Origin: Georgenia soli
Lineage (GTDB): Bacteria > Actinomycetota > Actinomycetes > Actinomycetales > Actinomycetaceae
NCBI RefSeq assembly: GCF_002563695.1
Contig: NZ_PDJI01000004.1
Coordinates: 1,674,001-1,738,000 of the forward strand
DNA length: 64,000 nt
Reading direction: 5' to 3'
Below, one piece after another: positions 41,046 through 51,028 of this stretch. The notes under the pieces were generated by a model. It searched no databases and was not told the DNA's origin. It was given only the letters and a program-made list of their open reading frames with translations. The position numbers and the translations under genes are program-made. How positions within the stretch are numbered: position 1 is the first letter of the stretch; the number at the start of each line of letters is the position of its first letter.

Positions 41046-42176
41046 TCACACGGTGAGGACGTAGCCCTCCGCGGCGTCGTCCCACCGCAGGTCGACGATC
41101 CCGTCGGCCTGCGCGGCCCGGCAGAACTGCAGGAAGTTGCGGTAGCCGAGCGCCTTCTCGCTGAAGTCCGGCCGGTGCTTGCGCAGGCCGTCCTTCAGGC
41201 TCGAGAGCAGCACCGGCCGGTCGGCGCCGGCGACGACCTCGCGGAGCAGCGCGAAGGCGCTGTCGCGCTCGCCGCGCTCCGGCAGCGACACCTCCGGGTC
41301 GCCCGCCGCGGGGCCGGGCGACAGCTCGACGATGCCGCGCTCGGCGAGGTTCTTCAGCACCTCGCCGAACGACCGGAAACCGTGGTTCGCCTCGCTGAAC
41401 GTCGGGTCCTTGCGCAGCAGCGTCCGCTTGAGCACCGAGGCGGTCACCGCCCCGGAGGCCGACGCGAGCCCGGCCAGCGTCTGCGCGACGAGCACCTCGA
41501 GGGGCCGCTGCTCCGTCTCGGGCGCCTCGGTCCCGCCGTCGTCCGGTGCGGCGCCGCCGGCCACGCCGGCGGGCGCGGGTTCTCCCTCCGGCGCGGGCGC
41601 GGCAGCCGGCGCTGCCGTGGAGGTGGTGTCACGCCCGCTCGTGGCGGCGCTCCGACGCCCCCGCGGCTGTCGCTCCCGCGGGGCGGGCTCCTCGGGCACC
41701 TCGACCCCCTCGAGCTCGTCGTAGAAGAGGAACTCGTCGCAGGCCGGCGGCAGCAGCCGGGAGGTCGAGTTCTCGACACCGACGCCGATGACCCGCTTGT
41801 TCAGCTCCCTGAGCTTGTGGACGAGCGGGGAGAAGTCGCTGTCACCGGTGCACATCACGAAGGTCGAGATGTAGTCGCGCTCGAAGGCCATCTCGATGGC
41901 GTCGACCACCATCTTGATGTCCGCCGCGTTCTTCCTGGAGGTCCCCATCCGCTGCGGCATCTCGATGAGCTCGACCTGGTGGCGCGTCAGGGAGCGCCGG
42001 TCCTCGTCGAAGTACGACCAGTCCGCGTACGCCCGTCGCACGACCACCCGGCCCCGCAGCGCGAGAGCGTCGGCGATGGGCCCGAAGTCGAAAGCCATCC
42101 CGCCGAGGTGGTCGCGTGCGCCGAGCGCGAGGTTCTCGTAGTCGAGGAAGACGGCCAGACGTTCTTCGGGTTCCAT
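41046..42176 (-). CDS. NYN-domain RNase-like protein with two OST-HTH/LOTUS domains
   Basis: 376 residues. Residues 1-150 are a NYN (PIN-like) nuclease domain with the acidic residues in FLDYENL, AADIKMVVDAIEMA and CTGDSDFSPLV. After an Ala/Pro-rich linker (155-215) come two OST-HTH repeats (~225-295 and ~310-376; DPTFSEANHGFRSFGEVLKNL and RPDFSEKALGYRNFLQFCRA), which bind RNA, notably G-quadruplexes. Known bacterial members are uncharacterised or RNA-decay factors. Start ATG 42176 is preceded by TACGCT at 6 bases. Confidence 0.9.
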   Translation of the reverse strand: MEPEERLAVFLDYENLALGARDHLGGMAFDFGPIADALALRGRVVVRRAYADWSYFDEDRRSLTRHQVELIEMPQRMGTSRKNAADIKMVVDAIEMAFERDYISTFVMCTGDSDFSPLVHKLRELNKRVIGVGVENSTSRLLPPACDEFLFYDELEGVEVPEEPAPRERQPRGRRSAATSGRDTTSTAAPAAAPAPEGEPAPAGVAGGAAPDDGGTEAPETEQRPLEVLVAQTLAGLASASGAVTASVLKRTLLRKDPTFSEANHGFRSFGEVLKNLAERGIVELSPGPAAGDPEVSLPERGERDSAFALLREVVAGADRPVLLSSLKDGLRKHRPDFSEKALGYRNFLQFCRAAQADGIVDLRWDDAAEGYVLTV

Positions 42177-44789: not shown

Positions 44790-46655
44790 TCAGCCCCGCA
44801 GCTTCTCGAGCCTCGCCCGGAGCGCCTCGGCGCGCCGGGCGTTGCCGTGCAAGGAGACGTACCGGTCGCCGAACACCTCGAGCAGCGCGTCGTCGAGCCG
44901 GCGGACCGCACCGGGCGGGTACCGGTAGCCCATGCGTTCGCTGAGGTCCTCGCTGTCGACGTCGCCGAGCACCTCGCCCAGCTCCTGCAGCGACGCCACG
45001 CCCAGCTCGAGGAGGAGCCCGGAGACCCAGGCGTAGTGGTCGGTGCGCGACCACCCGGCGCCCGGGAAGCGACCGGCCAGGAACGCCGCGAGGTCCTGGG
45101 CGCTGATCCGCGGGTCGGCCGCGTCGCTCCCGGGCTCGTGGCCCGTCATGCTCTCCTGCAGGCGGTCCCGGATCGCGGAGAACTCCCGGTCCGCGAGGTC
45201 GAGCAGCCCGGCCGCGAGCGTGAACCGCCGGTCGAGGTCGGGGGCGTACTCCGCCGGCACCGTGCCTTTGTAGCGGATGTCGTGCTCGAACTCCGCCCAG
45301 GCGTGCTGCAGCACCGTGCGCACCTGCACCGACGCGATGCGCCCCGCGAGGTCGCCGTACCCGGTGTCGCGCGCGTGCGCGTCGTCGAGCTGGACGAGCA
45401 CGTGCCGGCTGGCGTAGCCGAACCGCCCCTCCTGCGCCGTCTCCAGTCCCATGTCACGGTCCACGAGCACGGTGAGCTGGTCGGCGAGCAGCTCGACGAC
45501 CGCCTGGACGTCGCTGACCAGGTACGCGATCACCCGCACCCCCACCTGGTCCGTGATCTGGTGCAGCGGGTCGCTGTAGACGGGCCGTCCGCCGGCCGTG
45601 CGTGAGGCCTTCTCGGCGAAGGACTCGACGGACTTGGCGCGCCCCGAGACGGTGAGGTAGTTGATGCCCGCCTCGTCCAGCAGGGACGTGACGAGGGCGA
45701 CGTACCGCTCGGTGGTCCGCTCGAGAGCCGGGCGCTGGGCCGCGTACGTCTGCACCGCCTCGCGGACGGGGTCGGCCGCTGGCACCGGCGCCGCCTCCGG
45801 AGCGGCGGCCTCCGGCGTCGCGGCCCCCGGCGTCACGGCCCCCGGCGTCGCGGCCGGCGGTGGAGCGGCGTCCGGTGCGGCGCCGGCCTCGGACGGCCGT
45901 TGCGCCCGTGGGGCCGGCACGTGCCCCTCGGGCAGGGTGGGCGTGACGATGTAGCCGGTGGCCAGGTCGCCGTAGGTGGTGGTGCGCTCCGGGTGGGCCT
46001 CGGCGAACCGGGCGACGTACGCGCACACCACGGCGTCGATCTGGTCCTCGGCCCGGCGCAGGTCGCTCTTGCGGCCCGCCTCCCGGACGTCGGCGACGAG
46101 CCTGCGCCAGCCGTCGTGGCCGGTGACGACCATGGGCGTCTCCGCCTCGGCGAGGCCCTCGAGGTGTCCGACGAGCTCCAGGAGCGCCTCGCGCAGCTCC
46201 GGCAGGGTCCGCCCCGGCTTCTGCTTGTACTTCAGGGTCCGGCCGAGACGGAACAGCGCGATCGTCGCCGGGTGGGGGTAGACCTCGATCGCCCTGCGGG
46301 GGCGGCGGGAGGCGGGGTTGATGTCCAGGCCAAGCGCCTTGGCCAGGCGTGCGCCGCGCGGCGTGCCCGCGAACTCCGGCCTGCCCGTGTTGGCCGGGTG
46401 AGCGCCGGCGTCGAAGCGGGCGAAGTCCCGGTTGAGCGCCGCCTCGCACGGCCGGTTGCCCGTCTCGTTGACGACGACGAGCGGGGCGTCGATCGCCACC
46501 AGGACCGGCCCCTGCCGGTAGGGCGAGAGCGCGGCGAGGATGGACTCGTCGGTGTCCTGCGCCGAGAGGTGGACCAGGCGTCCGCCGTCGTCAAGGACGG
46601 CGAGGCCGGTGGGGCGGACCTCGCCCCAGGCGAGGTCGATGCCGACGTAGTGCAT
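44790..46655 (-). CDS. DUF429 - RelA/SpoT synthetase-like fusion protein
   Basis: 621 residues. Residues 1-240 are a DUF429 domain (RNase H-like fold): VGIDLAWG (D7), VAIDAPL (D56), AIEVYPHP (E124) and RRAEDQIDAVVCAY (acidic D207 helix). A Pro/Ala repeat linker (~245-300) joins a RelA/SpoT nucleotidyltransferase-like domain (~315-465): VSGRAKSVESF (R339, K341, S342), ITDQVGVRVIAY (D369, R374), FGYASRH (Y414) and VQVRTVLQHAWAEFEHDIRYKG core (R446, H451, E457, H458, K463). No HD hydrolase, TGS or ACT domain. Residues 500-621 are an unassigned helical tail. It could make (p)ppGpp or transfer pyrophosphate to RNA as toxic alarmone synthetases do. ATG 46655 is the DUF429 start. Confidence 0.85.
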   Translation of the reverse strand: MHYVGIDLAWGEVRPTGLAVLDDGGRLVHLSAQDTDESILAALSPYRQGPVLVAIDAPLVVVNETGNRPCEAALNRDFARFDAGAHPANTGRPEFAGTPRGARLAKALGLDINPASRRPRRAIEVYPHPATIALFRLGRTLKYKQKPGRTLPELREALLELVGHLEGLAEAETPMVVTGHDGWRRLVADVREAGRKSDLRRAEDQIDAVVCAYVARFAEAHPERTTTYGDLATGYIVTPTLPEGHVPAPRAQRPSEAGAAPDAAPPPAATPGAVTPGAATPEAAAPEAAPVPAADPVREAVQTYAAQRPALERTTERYVALVTSLLDEAGINYLTVSGRAKSVESFAEKASRTAGGRPVYSDPLHQITDQVGVRVIAYLVSDVQAVVELLADQLTVLVDRDMGLETAQEGRFGYASRHVLVQLDDAHARDTGYGDLAGRIASVQVRTVLQHAWAEFEHDIRYKGTVPAEYAPDLDRRFTLAAGLLDLADREFSAIRDRLQESMTGHEPGSDAADPRISAQDLAAFLAGRFPGAGWSRTDHYAWVSGLLLELGVASLQELGEVLGDVDSEDLSERMGYRYPPGAVRRLDDALLEVFGDRYVSLHGNARRAEALRARLEKLRG

Positions 46656-46759: not shown

Positions 46760-47881
46760 CTACAGGTGCCGCTCGTCGGGGCCGTTGTAGGCGCTGAGCG
46801 GGCGGATCAGCGCGTTGGACGCGAGCTGCTCCATGATGTGCGCGGTCCAGCCGGTGATGCGGGCGGCGACGAACAGCGGCGTGAACGTCGCCGTGTCGAA
46901 GCCCATGAGGTGGTACGCGGGACCGGAGGGGTAGTCCAGGTTGGGCCGGATGTTCTTCCGCTCGACCATTGCGGCCTCGAGTCGGTCGTAGAGCTCGGCC
47001 AGGTCGGGGCGGTCGTAGTGCGCGACGAGGGTGTCCAGCGCCGCCTTCATCGTGGGCACCCGCGAGTCGCCGCGCTTGTAGACGCGGTGCCCGAAGCCCA
47101 TGATCTTGCGCTTCTCGGCCAGCGCCTGCTCGAGCCACCCCTCCGCGTTCTCGGCGGTGCCGATCTCCTCGAAGACGTGCATGACGGCCTCGTTCGCGCC
47201 GCCGTGCAGCGGGCCCTTGAGCGCCCCGATCGCGCCGACGACGGCGGAGTAGAGGTCCGAGAGCGTCGAGGTGATCACCCGGGCGGTGAAGGTGGAGGCG
47301 TTGAAGGAGTGCTCGGCGTAGAGGATGAGCGAGACCCGGAAGGCGTCGACGACGACGTCCGCGGGCACCTCCCCGAACGTCATGTACAGGAAGTTCTCGA
47401 CGTAGCCCAGGTCGTTCCGGGGCTCGACGAGCTCCTGCCCGCGCCGGCGCCGCTGGTCGTAGGCCACGACCGCGGGGATCTGGGAGAGCAGCCGTACCGA
47501 CTTGGCGTAGCTGGACTCCGGCGAGGCGTCGTCGGCGGCGGGGTCGGTGGCCCCGATGACCGAGACGGCGGTGCGCAGCACGTCCATCGGGTGCGCGGTG
47601 GTGGGGACGAGGTCGACGGCGGCCCGGACCTCCGGGGCGAGCGCCCGCTGGGAGCGGCCCGCCTCCTCCATCTCGCTCAGCTGCTCCGGCGTGGGCAGCT
47701 CGCCGTGCCACAGCAGGTAGGCGACCTCCTCGAAGGTGCACCGGGCGGCGAGCTCCTGGACGGGGTAGCCGCGGTACAGCAGGGAGTTGGTCTCGGGGTT
47801 GACCTTGGAGATGGCGGTGGTGTCGGCGACGACGCCGACGAGGCCCTTGCGGATCTCGGGCTCGGTCTGGGTCTGGCTCAT
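46760..47881 (-). CDS. prpC: 2-methylcitrate synthase
   Basis: 373-residue citrate-synthase-family enzyme that joins propionyl-CoA and oxaloacetate. IRKGLVGVVADTTAISKV and LLYRGYPVQELA at the start, catalytic histidines in GPLHGGANE and GFGHRVYK, and the C-terminal DYPSGPAYHLMGFDTATFTPLFV are typical of the methylcitrate/type-2 group. AAGGAG lies 6 bases before ATG 47881. Last gene of the propionate operon. Confidence 0.93.
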   Translation of the reverse strand: MSQTQTEPEIRKGLVGVVADTTAISKVNPETNSLLYRGYPVQELAARCTFEEVAYLLWHGELPTPEQLSEMEEAGRSQRALAPEVRAAVDLVPTTAHPMDVLRTAVSVIGATDPAADDASPESSYAKSVRLLSQIPAVVAYDQRRRRGQELVEPRNDLGYVENFLYMTFGEVPADVVVDAFRVSLILYAEHSFNASTFTARVITSTLSDLYSAVVGAIGALKGPLHGGANEAVMHVFEEIGTAENAEGWLEQALAEKRKIMGFGHRVYKRGDSRVPTMKAALDTLVAHYDRPDLAELYDRLEAAMVERKNIRPNLDYPSGPAYHLMGFDTATFTPLFVAARITGWTAHIMEQLASNALIRPLSAYNGPDERHL

Positions 47882-47925
47882 GTCTCGCTCCTTCGCGAAC
47901 ATCTGGCGGCAGATCTGGGGCTGGG

Positions 47926-48828
47926 TCAGTCGGTGCGGACGGTGAAGTTGTAGATGCCGGTGTCGAAGTGGTTGTAGGCCTCGTAGTCGAGAAGCTCGTA
48001 CAGGCGGGAGCGGTGCTGCATGCTGGCCAGCTCCGAGGTCAGCGTCCCCTCGCGCCGGATGGTGTCCAGGCCGCGTTCGGCGGCGCCCATCGCCAGGCGC
48101 AGCAGCGAGACCGGGAAGATGACGATCGAGACGCCGGCATCCCTCAGCTGGTCGGTGGTGAACAGCTCGGACTTGCCGAACTCGGTCATGTTCGCCAGCA
48201 CGGGGACCTCGACGGCGCTGGCGATCGCCTCGAACTCGGCGAGGTCGCGCATGGCCTCGGGGAAGATCGCGTCCGCACCGGCGTCCACCAGGGCCCTGGC
48301 CCGGTCGGCGGCGGCGTCGAAACCGTCGACGCCGCGGACGTCGGTGCGGGCCATGACGAGCAGGTTGGGGTCGCGGCGGGCGTCGACGGCGGCGCGGACG
48401 CGCTTGGCGGCGGTGTCGACGTCGACCACCTGCTTGCCGTCGAGGTGACCGCACCGCTTGGGGTTGACCTGGTCCTCGATGTGCAGGCCCGCGACGCCGG
48501 CGTCCTCGAGGGACTGGACGGTACGGGCGACGTTCATCGGCTCGCCGAACCCGGTGTCCGCGTCCACCAGCGCCGGCAGGTCGGTCATGCGGGCGATCTG
48601 CTGGGACCGGCCCGCCACCTCGGTCAGGGTCGTCAGCCCGATGTCGGGCAGCCCCAGGTCGGCGGAGAGCACCGCGCCGGAGATGTAGACGCCGTCGAAG
48701 CCCTTCTCCTGGATCAGCTTCGCCGAGAGGGGGTTGAACGCGCCGGGGAAGAGCAGCGTCTCGTCGGTGGCGAGCCGCTCGCGCAGCCGCGCCCGCTTCT
48801 CGGCCGCGTTCGTCGTGCAGTACAGCAT
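47926..48828 (-). CDS. prpB: 2-methylisocitrate lyase
   Basis: 300-residue isocitrate-lyase-superfamily enzyme that splits 2-methylisocitrate to pyruvate and succinate. The catalytic loop KRCGHLDGK, ALVDADTGFGEP and the N-terminal LLFPGAFNPLSAKLIQEKGFDGVYISGA are characteristic. Its ATG shares one base with the prpD stop (TGATG). Confidence 0.95.
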   Translation of the reverse strand: MLYCTTNAAEKRARLRERLATDETLLFPGAFNPLSAKLIQEKGFDGVYISGAVLSADLGLPDIGLTTLTEVAGRSQQIARMTDLPALVDADTGFGEPMNVARTVQSLEDAGVAGLHIEDQVNPKRCGHLDGKQVVDVDTAAKRVRAAVDARRDPNLLVMARTDVRGVDGFDAAADRARALVDAGADAIFPEAMRDLAEFEAIASAVEVPVLANMTEFGKSELFTTDQLRDAGVSIVIFPVSLLRLAMGAAERGLDTIRREGTLTSELASMQHRSRLYELLDYEAYNHFDTGIYNFTVRTD

Positions 48829-50354
48829 CAGAAGATCCCCTCCGGGACGGTGACGGCGTCGAGGTAGCCGTCGGGGGCGGTCACGGTCAGCTCGCCCAGC
48901 TCCGCGGCGGAGAGCTCGGGCAGGCGCTGGGCGACGTCGAGGAACCGCTCGACCTCGGCCTCGTCCAGGACGCCCTCGGCCAGGGTGCGGAACTTCGCCA
49001 CGTACTGCTCGCGGGCGAAGGGCCGGGCCCCCAGGGGGTGGGCGTCGGCGACGGCGATCTCCTCCACGATGCGTCCGCCGTCGGCCATGGTGATCTCGAG
49101 CCGGCCGCCGAAGGCCTTCTCGGCCGGGTCGCTCGAGTGGTACCGCCGGGTCCACTCCGGGTCCTCCGCCGTCGTGACCTTGCGCCACAGCTCGACCGTG
49201 TCGGGGCGCCCGGCCCGCTCCGGGGCGTACGAGCGCACGTGGTGCCAGGCCCCGTCCTGCAGCGCGACGGCGACGATGTACGGGATCGAGTGGTCGAGCG
49301 TCTCGCGCGAGGCGGTGGGGTCGTACTTCTGCGGGTCGTTGGCGCCCGAGCCGATGACGTAGTGGGTGTGGTGGGAGGTGTGCAGCACGATCGAGGTGAC
49401 GTTGTCCGGGTCGCGCAGGAACGGGTACTGGGTCCCGATCCGGCGGGCCAGGTCGATGAGCGCCTGCGCCTGGTACTCCGCGGAGTGCTCCTTGGTGTAG
49501 GTGTCCAGGATCGCCGTGCGGGGCTCGCCGGGGCCGGGCAGGACGACGTCGTAGGCGGCGTCCGGGCCGTCGAGCAGCCACGCGACGACGCCGTCCTCGC
49601 CCTCGTAGATCGGCGTCGGGGAGGTCTGGCCCCGCATGGCGCGGTCCACGGCCTCGACCGCGACCTTGCCGGCGAAGGCCGGGGCGTAGGCCTTCCAGGT
49701 GGAGATCTCGCCCTTGCGGGACTGCCGGGTGGCGGTCGTGGTGTGCAGGGCCTGCCCGATCGCGTGGAAGATCGTCTCGGCGTCCAGGCCCAGGAGCGTC
49801 CCGATGCCCGCGGCCGCCGAAGGGCCGAGATGGGCGACGTGGTCGATCTTGTGCTTGTGCAGGCTGATCGCCCTGACGAGGTCGACCTGGATCTCGTAGC
49901 CGGTGACGATGCCGCGCACCAGCTCCTTCCCGGTCAGGCCGCGCCGCTCGGCGAGGTGCTGCGCGACGGCGAGTATCGGTGGGATGTTGTCGGCCGGGTG
50001 GGAGTAGTCCGCGGCGAGGAAGGTGTCGTGGTAGTCCAGCTCGCGCACCGCCACCCCGTTGGCCCAGGCCGCCCACTCGGGGCTGACCCGGGTGGTGAGC
50101 GGGGTGCCGAAGACCGTGGCGCCCGGGCTGTACGGGTGCGCCAGCGCCTGGGCGCGGGCCGCCGCCGGCGGGGTGCGCACCAGCGACGCGGTGGCCACGG
50201 CCGCGTTGTCGATGACGCGGTTGACCACCATGTCGGTGACCGCCTCGGTGACCTCCACCGGGTCGGTGGCGAGCTCGGCGAGCTTCCAGGCGAGCTGCTC
50301 CTCGCGGGGCAGGTTGTCGGCGCTGGGGTGGACGCGGAGATGGTGGGTGTTCAC
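48828..50354 (-). CDS. prpD: 2-methylcitrate dehydratase PrpD
   Basis: 508-residue MmgE/PrpD-family enzyme. [37 protein letters not shown] and [16 protein letters not shown] segments (here [22 protein letters not shown]) define the family. It dehydrates 2-methylcitrate to 2-methylaconitate/2-methylisocitrate. Overlaps the regulator gene by 4 bases. Confidence 0.95.
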
Positions 50355-51028
50355 CGGGTGGCTCCAGGAGTGTGGGTGGGTGCGGGGTCGGACGCCCGGC
50401 CGTCGTCGGCCAGGCTGGTGAGGATGGTGTCCAGGGACGTGCGCAGGTGCACGGCGGTGGCGTGGGCGGCGAGGGTCTCGTCCCGCTCGGCGACGGCGCG
50501 CGCGATGAGCGCGTGCTCGGCCGCGGCACGGGCGAGGCGCTCGGGGTTGTCGTGGGAGAGCCGCCGGGCGCGGGCGGTGTGGGTGCGCAGGGTGGTCAGC
50601 GCGCGCAGGAGGTACGGGCTGGCGGCGGCCTCGTCGAGGGCCGCGTCGAGCTCGGCGACGAGCGCGTAGTAGGCCTCCCGCTCCCCCACGAGCCCCCCGG
50701 CGCGGGCGAAGCGCTCGGCGAGGGCGCCGAAGACCTCCCGGGTGCCGCGGCGGGCCGCGAGCCGCGCCTGCTGCACCTCGAGGGCCTCACGCAGCTCGAA
50801 GAGATGGACGAGGTCGGGGGCGCTGAGGGCCGAGACGACGAGCGTACGGCCCTTGCCGACGACGGCGAGCCCGTCCGAGACAAGCCGGCCGAAGGCCTCG
50901 CGCAGCGGCGTCCGGGAGACCCCGAGACGCTCGGCCTGCTCGACCTCGCTGAGCACGGCGCCCGGCTGCAGGCGCCAGGAGACGATCTCCTCCCGCAGGG
51001 AGGCGTAGACCCTCTCGCTGGCGCGCAC
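50351..51028 (-). CDS. GntR-family (FadR type) regulator of the propionate operon
   Basis: 225 residues: winged helix at residues 1-70 ([42 protein letters not shown]) and a helical FCD ligand domain. GTG 51028 has TAGGCT 6 bases upstream and no ribosome site, so leaderless. It is the first gene of the operon and a perfect GntR-type palindrome lies just upstream, so autoregulation together with prpDBC is likely; the ligand may be a methylcitrate-cycle intermediate. Confidence 0.9.

Follow-up and report, generated by a model that had tools for sequence, protein, structure and literature searches.

A 621-residue protein encoded in a 64,000-nucleotide stretch of the Georgenia soli genome (contig NZ_PDJI01000004.1, forward-strand positions 1,674,001 to 1,738,000; hereafter the window) joins a DUF429 domain to a small alarmone synthetase domain and is probably a RelZ-type enzyme, that is, a predicted cutter of RNA-DNA hybrids and R-loops that would likely also convert ATP and guanine nucleotides into pGpp and (p)ppGpp. 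The first-pass annotation of this DNA took the architecture to be uncharacterised, which is wrong: the DUF429-synthetase combination is already known, and its member from Mycobacterium smegmatis has been characterised biochemically. DUF429 was reported in 2011 on some actRel synthetases, those of M. gilvum, M. smegmatis and M. vanbaalenii (Atkinson et al. 2011, PMC3153485). The M. smegmatis protein MSMEG_5849, first called MS_RHII-RSD and later RelZ, is described as an ultraviolet-induced hexamer that cleaves both R-loops and RNA-DNA hybrids, synthesises pGpp, ppGpp and pppGpp with guanosine monophosphate (GMP) as the preferred substrate, and loses activity when its halves are separated (PMC7591505). 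Its two activities or domains are presented consistently in PMC4429107, PMC4300193, PMC8622095 and PMC10112252. Among small synthetases it is also cited as the only one with a demonstrated preference for GMP (PMC10112252), and the synthetase activity of MS_RHII-RSD is cited as Mg-independent (PMC5566576). In the literature searched, no experiments on a Georgenia member were found. The window gene is a further member of the RelZ kind, and what is new here comprises a change in the Syn4 motif, a RuvC-like prediction for the nuclease half, natural split forms and a helical tail.

The gene is an uninterrupted frame from its ATG start to the stop codon (Table 1). As first annotated, its product carries both DUF429 (residues 5-227, 99.7 bits, E 2.6e-28, curated cut-off 23) and RelA_SpoT (residues 338-464, 57.9 bits, E 1.5e-15, curated cut-off 27) in Pfam searches. 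The accompanying statement that no hydrolase domain is present also holds among the Pfam rows at E ≤ 1, the remaining rows being sub-threshold matches to MSP1_C and DUF4404. NCBIfam returned only a sub-threshold likeness to the GTP diphosphokinase YjbM (55.7 bits against a cut-off of 320). In an AlphaFold model of the fusion based on 128 sequences (mean predicted local distance difference test score (pLDDT) 89.7, predicted template modelling score (pTM) 0.62), pLDDT fell below 50 only at residues 255-286, within the Ala/Pro-rich linker that had been recognised between the two domains. A genome scan yielded 451 relatives, from which the best 80, matching from residue 1 to at least residue 608, were kept as fusion loci. 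The fusion lies in a single frame at all 80 kept loci (563-683 amino acids, the window protein included) and is therefore not a joining error, which confirms one gene rather than two misjoined genes. Hosts of the fusion include Georgenia, Ornithinimicrobium, Nakamurella, Nocardioides, Mumia, Actinopolymorpha, Cellulomonas, Kineosporia and mycobacteria, and the closest named proteins among the matches listed are from Georgenia. In a set of 59 genomes that contains the window's own, 28 match the fusion protein at E ≤ 0.001, and nine of these 28 hold both halves in one open frame.

Among solved structures, those closest to the synthetase half are small synthetases, namely 2be3, 3l9d and Bacillus subtilis YjbM/RelQ, and the window protein has a RelP/RelQ-type synthetase fold. 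A complete catalytic set had been expected for it, and most of this expectation stands: R339, K341, S345 and K349 (Syn1), D369 (Syn2), Y414 and H418 (Syn3), Q444, R446 and T447 (Syn4) and H458 are invariant across the 81 aligned fusions. The exception is the glutamate that forms the first residue of Syn4, ExQIRT (PMC6163740), which is Ser442 in the window protein. With the alignment anchored by the neighbouring QxRT, position 442 was found to be Gln in 42, Ser in 31, Ala in seven, Thr in one and Glu in none of the 81 sequences from the window and the 80 loci. Glu was likewise absent from two further sets, which overlap with the first and with each other: the best 120 of 2699 matches to the synthetase half plus the window protein (Ser 76, Gln 44, Thr 1; 100 of the 120 are shorter than 400 amino acids, some being clipped by contig ends) and the best 120 of 2755 matches to the full protein (Gln 72, Ser 48). 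All 22 fusions from a mycobacterial survey described below have Ser. In contrast, 13 of 13 more distant synthetases, drawn from relatives of the window's genome, keep the Glu, and in a tree built from 59 selected rows its loss appears as a single change with weak support (51).

In RelP, Asp107 and Glu174 hold Mg on an ATP analogue, and the ATP-coordinating and catalytic residues of RelP/RelQ are described as strictly conserved (PMC5794853). In the alignment to 5f2v the Asp-Glu spacing is 67 residues, equal to that of Asp107 and Glu174, and the window protein has Asp369 and Ser442 at these places, so that the Asp of the pair is retained and the Glu is not; a substitute acid was looked for in the alignments, and none was found. 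Metal use should therefore differ from that of RelP/RelQ. The absence of one Mg-holding carboxylate in the family is a possible reason for the Mg-independent activity cited for RelZ, a suggestion made with the RelZ and RelS sequences themselves uncompared. The absence of the Glu from all 81 fusions and all 121 close-synthetase rows, together with the role of the Glu and Asp in RelP, could also point to a synthetase half that has little or no alarmone-making activity and acts as a nucleotide sensor or an assembly platform for the nuclease. We regard this as improbable: the invariance of the remaining Syn residues examined would be unusual in a dead enzyme, and the mycobacterial members, with Ser in 22 of 22, belong to the group with reported RelZ activity. 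The G-loop reads GYASRH in the window protein and GYRSYH in RelQ; Arg417 is present in 80 of the 81 fusions and Ala or Ser at position 415 in 78, while the panel of 13 distant proteins is variable at both positions. RelQ Arg117, needed for stimulation by pppGpp (PMC5794853), appears to correspond to position 415.

DUF429 has been placed in the RuvC clade of the RNase H-like superfamily, with co-occurrence of RelA/SpoT in Actinobacteria (Majorek et al. 2014, PMC3985635). The matches listed in a structure comparison of residues 1-222 are RuvC-like, and a RuvC-like fold is predicted for this half. The RNase HII fold is not among these matches, which are best rows only and do not exclude it, and the RNase HII sequence family is not among the Pfam rows at E ≤ 1 for the window protein. 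Acidic residues conserved in the fusion alignment are D7, D56, E124, D204 and D207. In two Kineosporia fusions Asn replaces D56, and the other acidic residues are intact. RelZ has been named an RNase HII, though the corresponding half is predicted here to be RuvC-like, which makes branched substrates relevant. The DUF429 half could accordingly be a nuclease for branched, Holliday-junction-like DNA and not an RNase H, with the alarmone reporting recombination or replication damage; the predicted fold would suit this activity and the hybrid and R-loop cleavage reported for RelZ would not, and we consider it rather unlikely, if a serious contender.

The RelZ-type assignment remains the preferred one. 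By extension from RelZ, the nuclease would remove the RNA-DNA hybrid where transcription blocks replication, and the alarmone would then help to clear the stalled RNA polymerase; since the Glu is absent, Asp369 would be the only carboxylate of the usual pair left to support pyrophosphate transfer. Five points weigh against this assignment: (i) the function of the window protein is argued from its likeness to RelZ; (ii) its kinship to RelZ is judged from other mycobacterial members, with the M. smegmatis sequence uncompared; (iii) the biochemistry of RelZ is taken from reviews and citing papers; (iv) the synthetase, lacking the Syn4 Glu, could be weak or altered; and (v) the nuclease fold is predicted to be RuvC-like, not RNase HII-like, so that the enzyme may in fact act on some other, branched nucleic acid. 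A more specific proposal, which we put forward tentatively and hold to be somewhat doubtful, is that the clade that includes RelZ dropped the Syn4 Glu yet continues to make alarmones through a GMP-tuned transfer that is metal-light and uses one carboxylate, coupled to a RuvC-like nuclease in such a way that resolving jammed nucleic acid and raising the alarm are one event. The loss of the Glu across the aligned relatives offers a sequence-level reason to examine the Mg independence and GMP preference cited for RelZ, and the metal chemistry of alarmone synthesis would become testable through a clade that lacks this residue.

A survey of 60 mycobacterial genomes of one genus (E ≤ 1e-20) identified matches in 51, comprising 22 with the fusion and 29 with the DUF429 half only; nine had neither, and one of the 29 has a distant synthetase elsewhere. 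The 22 fusions (565-584 amino acids) are 51-59% identical to the window protein over about 620 residues and agree with it at the catalytic positions examined, including Ser for the Syn4 Glu. The stand-alone form was sampled at 27 loci from 26 of the 29 DUF429-only genomes (G065, G073 and G100 were left out). A head-to-head arrangement with purB, with 5' ends 24-233 nucleotides apart, is shared by all 22 fusions and by 25 of the 27 stand-alone genes; at the other two stand-alone loci purB was not seen within the stretch examined. The purB gene, assigned by Pfam in locus L076, also adjoins the fusion in 16 of 16 mycobacterial loci of the 80-locus set (among L044-L082), and it was not found at the other 64 loci or in the window. 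D7, D56, E124, E203, D204 and D207 are retained in 29 of 29 stand-alone rows (the 27 sampled plus L101 and L102, which are distant and come from the family of the window's organism). On the tree, fused and stand-alone forms are intermixed, with five changes between them, at least two of which are forced. From the placement beside purB and the kept residues, the mycobacterial forms are therefore mostly the same gene with or without the synthetase, and DUF429 occurs alone in many mycobacteria. The reported inactivity of the RelZ halves when apart is awkward beside natural stand-alone DUF429 proteins with intact acidic residues, and the mutual need of the two halves can be checked on these proteins. 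By analogy with RelZ, a GMP-using enzyme and a purine-synthesis gene may share a promoter region here. One genome (G068) has two stand-alone DUF429 genes, one by purB and the other without purB in the stretch examined, and purC- and purD-type genes occur within about 10 kb of several mycobacterial DUF429 loci.

The C-terminal tail was modelled as a helical domain (pLDDT 89.2, pTM 0.81) and contains 27 invariant positions among 79 sequences; Pfam and structure searches gave it no Pfam family and no useful match in the PDB. W535, Y541, N605 and R608 are present in all 121 rows of the close-synthetase list. These proteins are mostly listed without DUF429, and the tail is therefore a companion of the synthetase rather than of the fusion. 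It might have a role in assembly or regulation or, as suggested at first, in sensing.

Genes similar to prpC, prpB and prpD (names inferred from Pfam domains and gene order) and an FCD/GntR regulator lie immediately upstream of the fusion gene on the same strand (46760-51028), and the opposite flank holds convergent genes for an ATP-binding cassette (ABC) transporter ATPase and an FtsX-like permease. The prpC-like neighbour recurs in two of the 80 loci, and no gene partner is common to all 80. A role in phage defence, perhaps as a toxic effector, had been suggested at first as an alternative to one in stress, and defence islands were named as a place to look for homologues. PADLOC assigned PDC-S44 to the DUF429 half (residues 1-244, E 4.5e-82) and PDC-S33 to the synthetase half (E 6.2e-9), both of the class described as 'phage defence candidate' (PMC11514479). 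Among ten neighbours it matched an NYN protein (E 1.3e-5) and the ABC ATPase, the latter to mad3 (E 1.8e-28), mad8 (E 1.4e-13), GajA and AbiLi; we attribute these neighbour matches to general likeness among nucleases and P-loop proteins. Beyond the candidate label little argues for defence: the neighbours of the window gene are metabolic, the steady neighbour in mycobacteria is purB, and neither the 35 matched plasmid records (of 72,556) nor the 16 matched phage records (of 50,697) span 80% of the fusion protein in one place. An anti-phage or toxic effector of the toxSAS/CapRel kind joined to a nuclease is thus very improbable. Of the function first suggested, the pairing of alarmone synthesis with a nuclease is likely right, judging from RelZ, and the phage-defence and toxic-effector parts are unsupported. 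Elsewhere in the window, at 41046-42110, Pfam identified a protein pairing an NYN nuclease domain with an OST-HTH/LOTUS domain. This pairing is better known from eukaryotic RNA regulators.

Table 1. Features of the fusion gene and its upstream neighbour, in window positions
Feature	Position	Strand	Basis
RelZ-type fusion gene, 621 amino acids	44790..46655	-	Translation, Pfam, relatives
DUF429 domain, residues 1-244, predicted RuvC-like RNase H fold	45924..46655	-	Pfam, model, structure comparison, conservation
Ala/Pro-rich linker, residues 247-295	45771..45917	-	Mid-part predicted disordered (low pLDDT)
Small alarmone synthetase domain, residues 296-503	45147..45770	-	
Ser442 codon, at the place of the metal-holding Syn4 Glu of other synthetases	45330..45332	-	Alignments
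C-terminal helical domain, residues 508-621	44793..45134	-	Alignment, Pfam, model
prpC-like citrate synthase gene	46760..47896	-	Pfam; 104 nucleotides upstream of the fusion gene, same strand

Comparison with known systems places the window protein nearest to RelZ, in which DUF429 likewise stands ahead of a small alarmone synthetase, the kinship being traced through other mycobacterial members. They differ in that the window protein has 621 residues and lies by prpC, whereas the mycobacterial members have 565-584 residues and lie by purB. The mycobacterial stand-alone DUF429 proteins share the acidic residues and, in 25 of 27 cases, the purB-side locus of the mycobacterial fusions, but lack the synthetase half. 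RelS of Corynebacterium glutamicum, compared by description, is an actRel synthetase of about 39 kDa whose synthetase domain is said to exceed that of other small synthetases in length and whose Syn4 is described as deviating slightly from ExQIRT; however, it has no DUF429 and is strictly Mg-dependent, unlike RelZ as cited. RelP and RelQ (SAS2 and SAS1) have the synthetase fold and the Syn1-Syn3 residues in common with the window protein, but they retain the Syn4 Glu and lack DUF429. CapRel and the toxSAS proteins carry extra domains unlike those of the window protein, beside which no antitoxin gene was seen, its nearest neighbours being the citrate synthase and permease genes.
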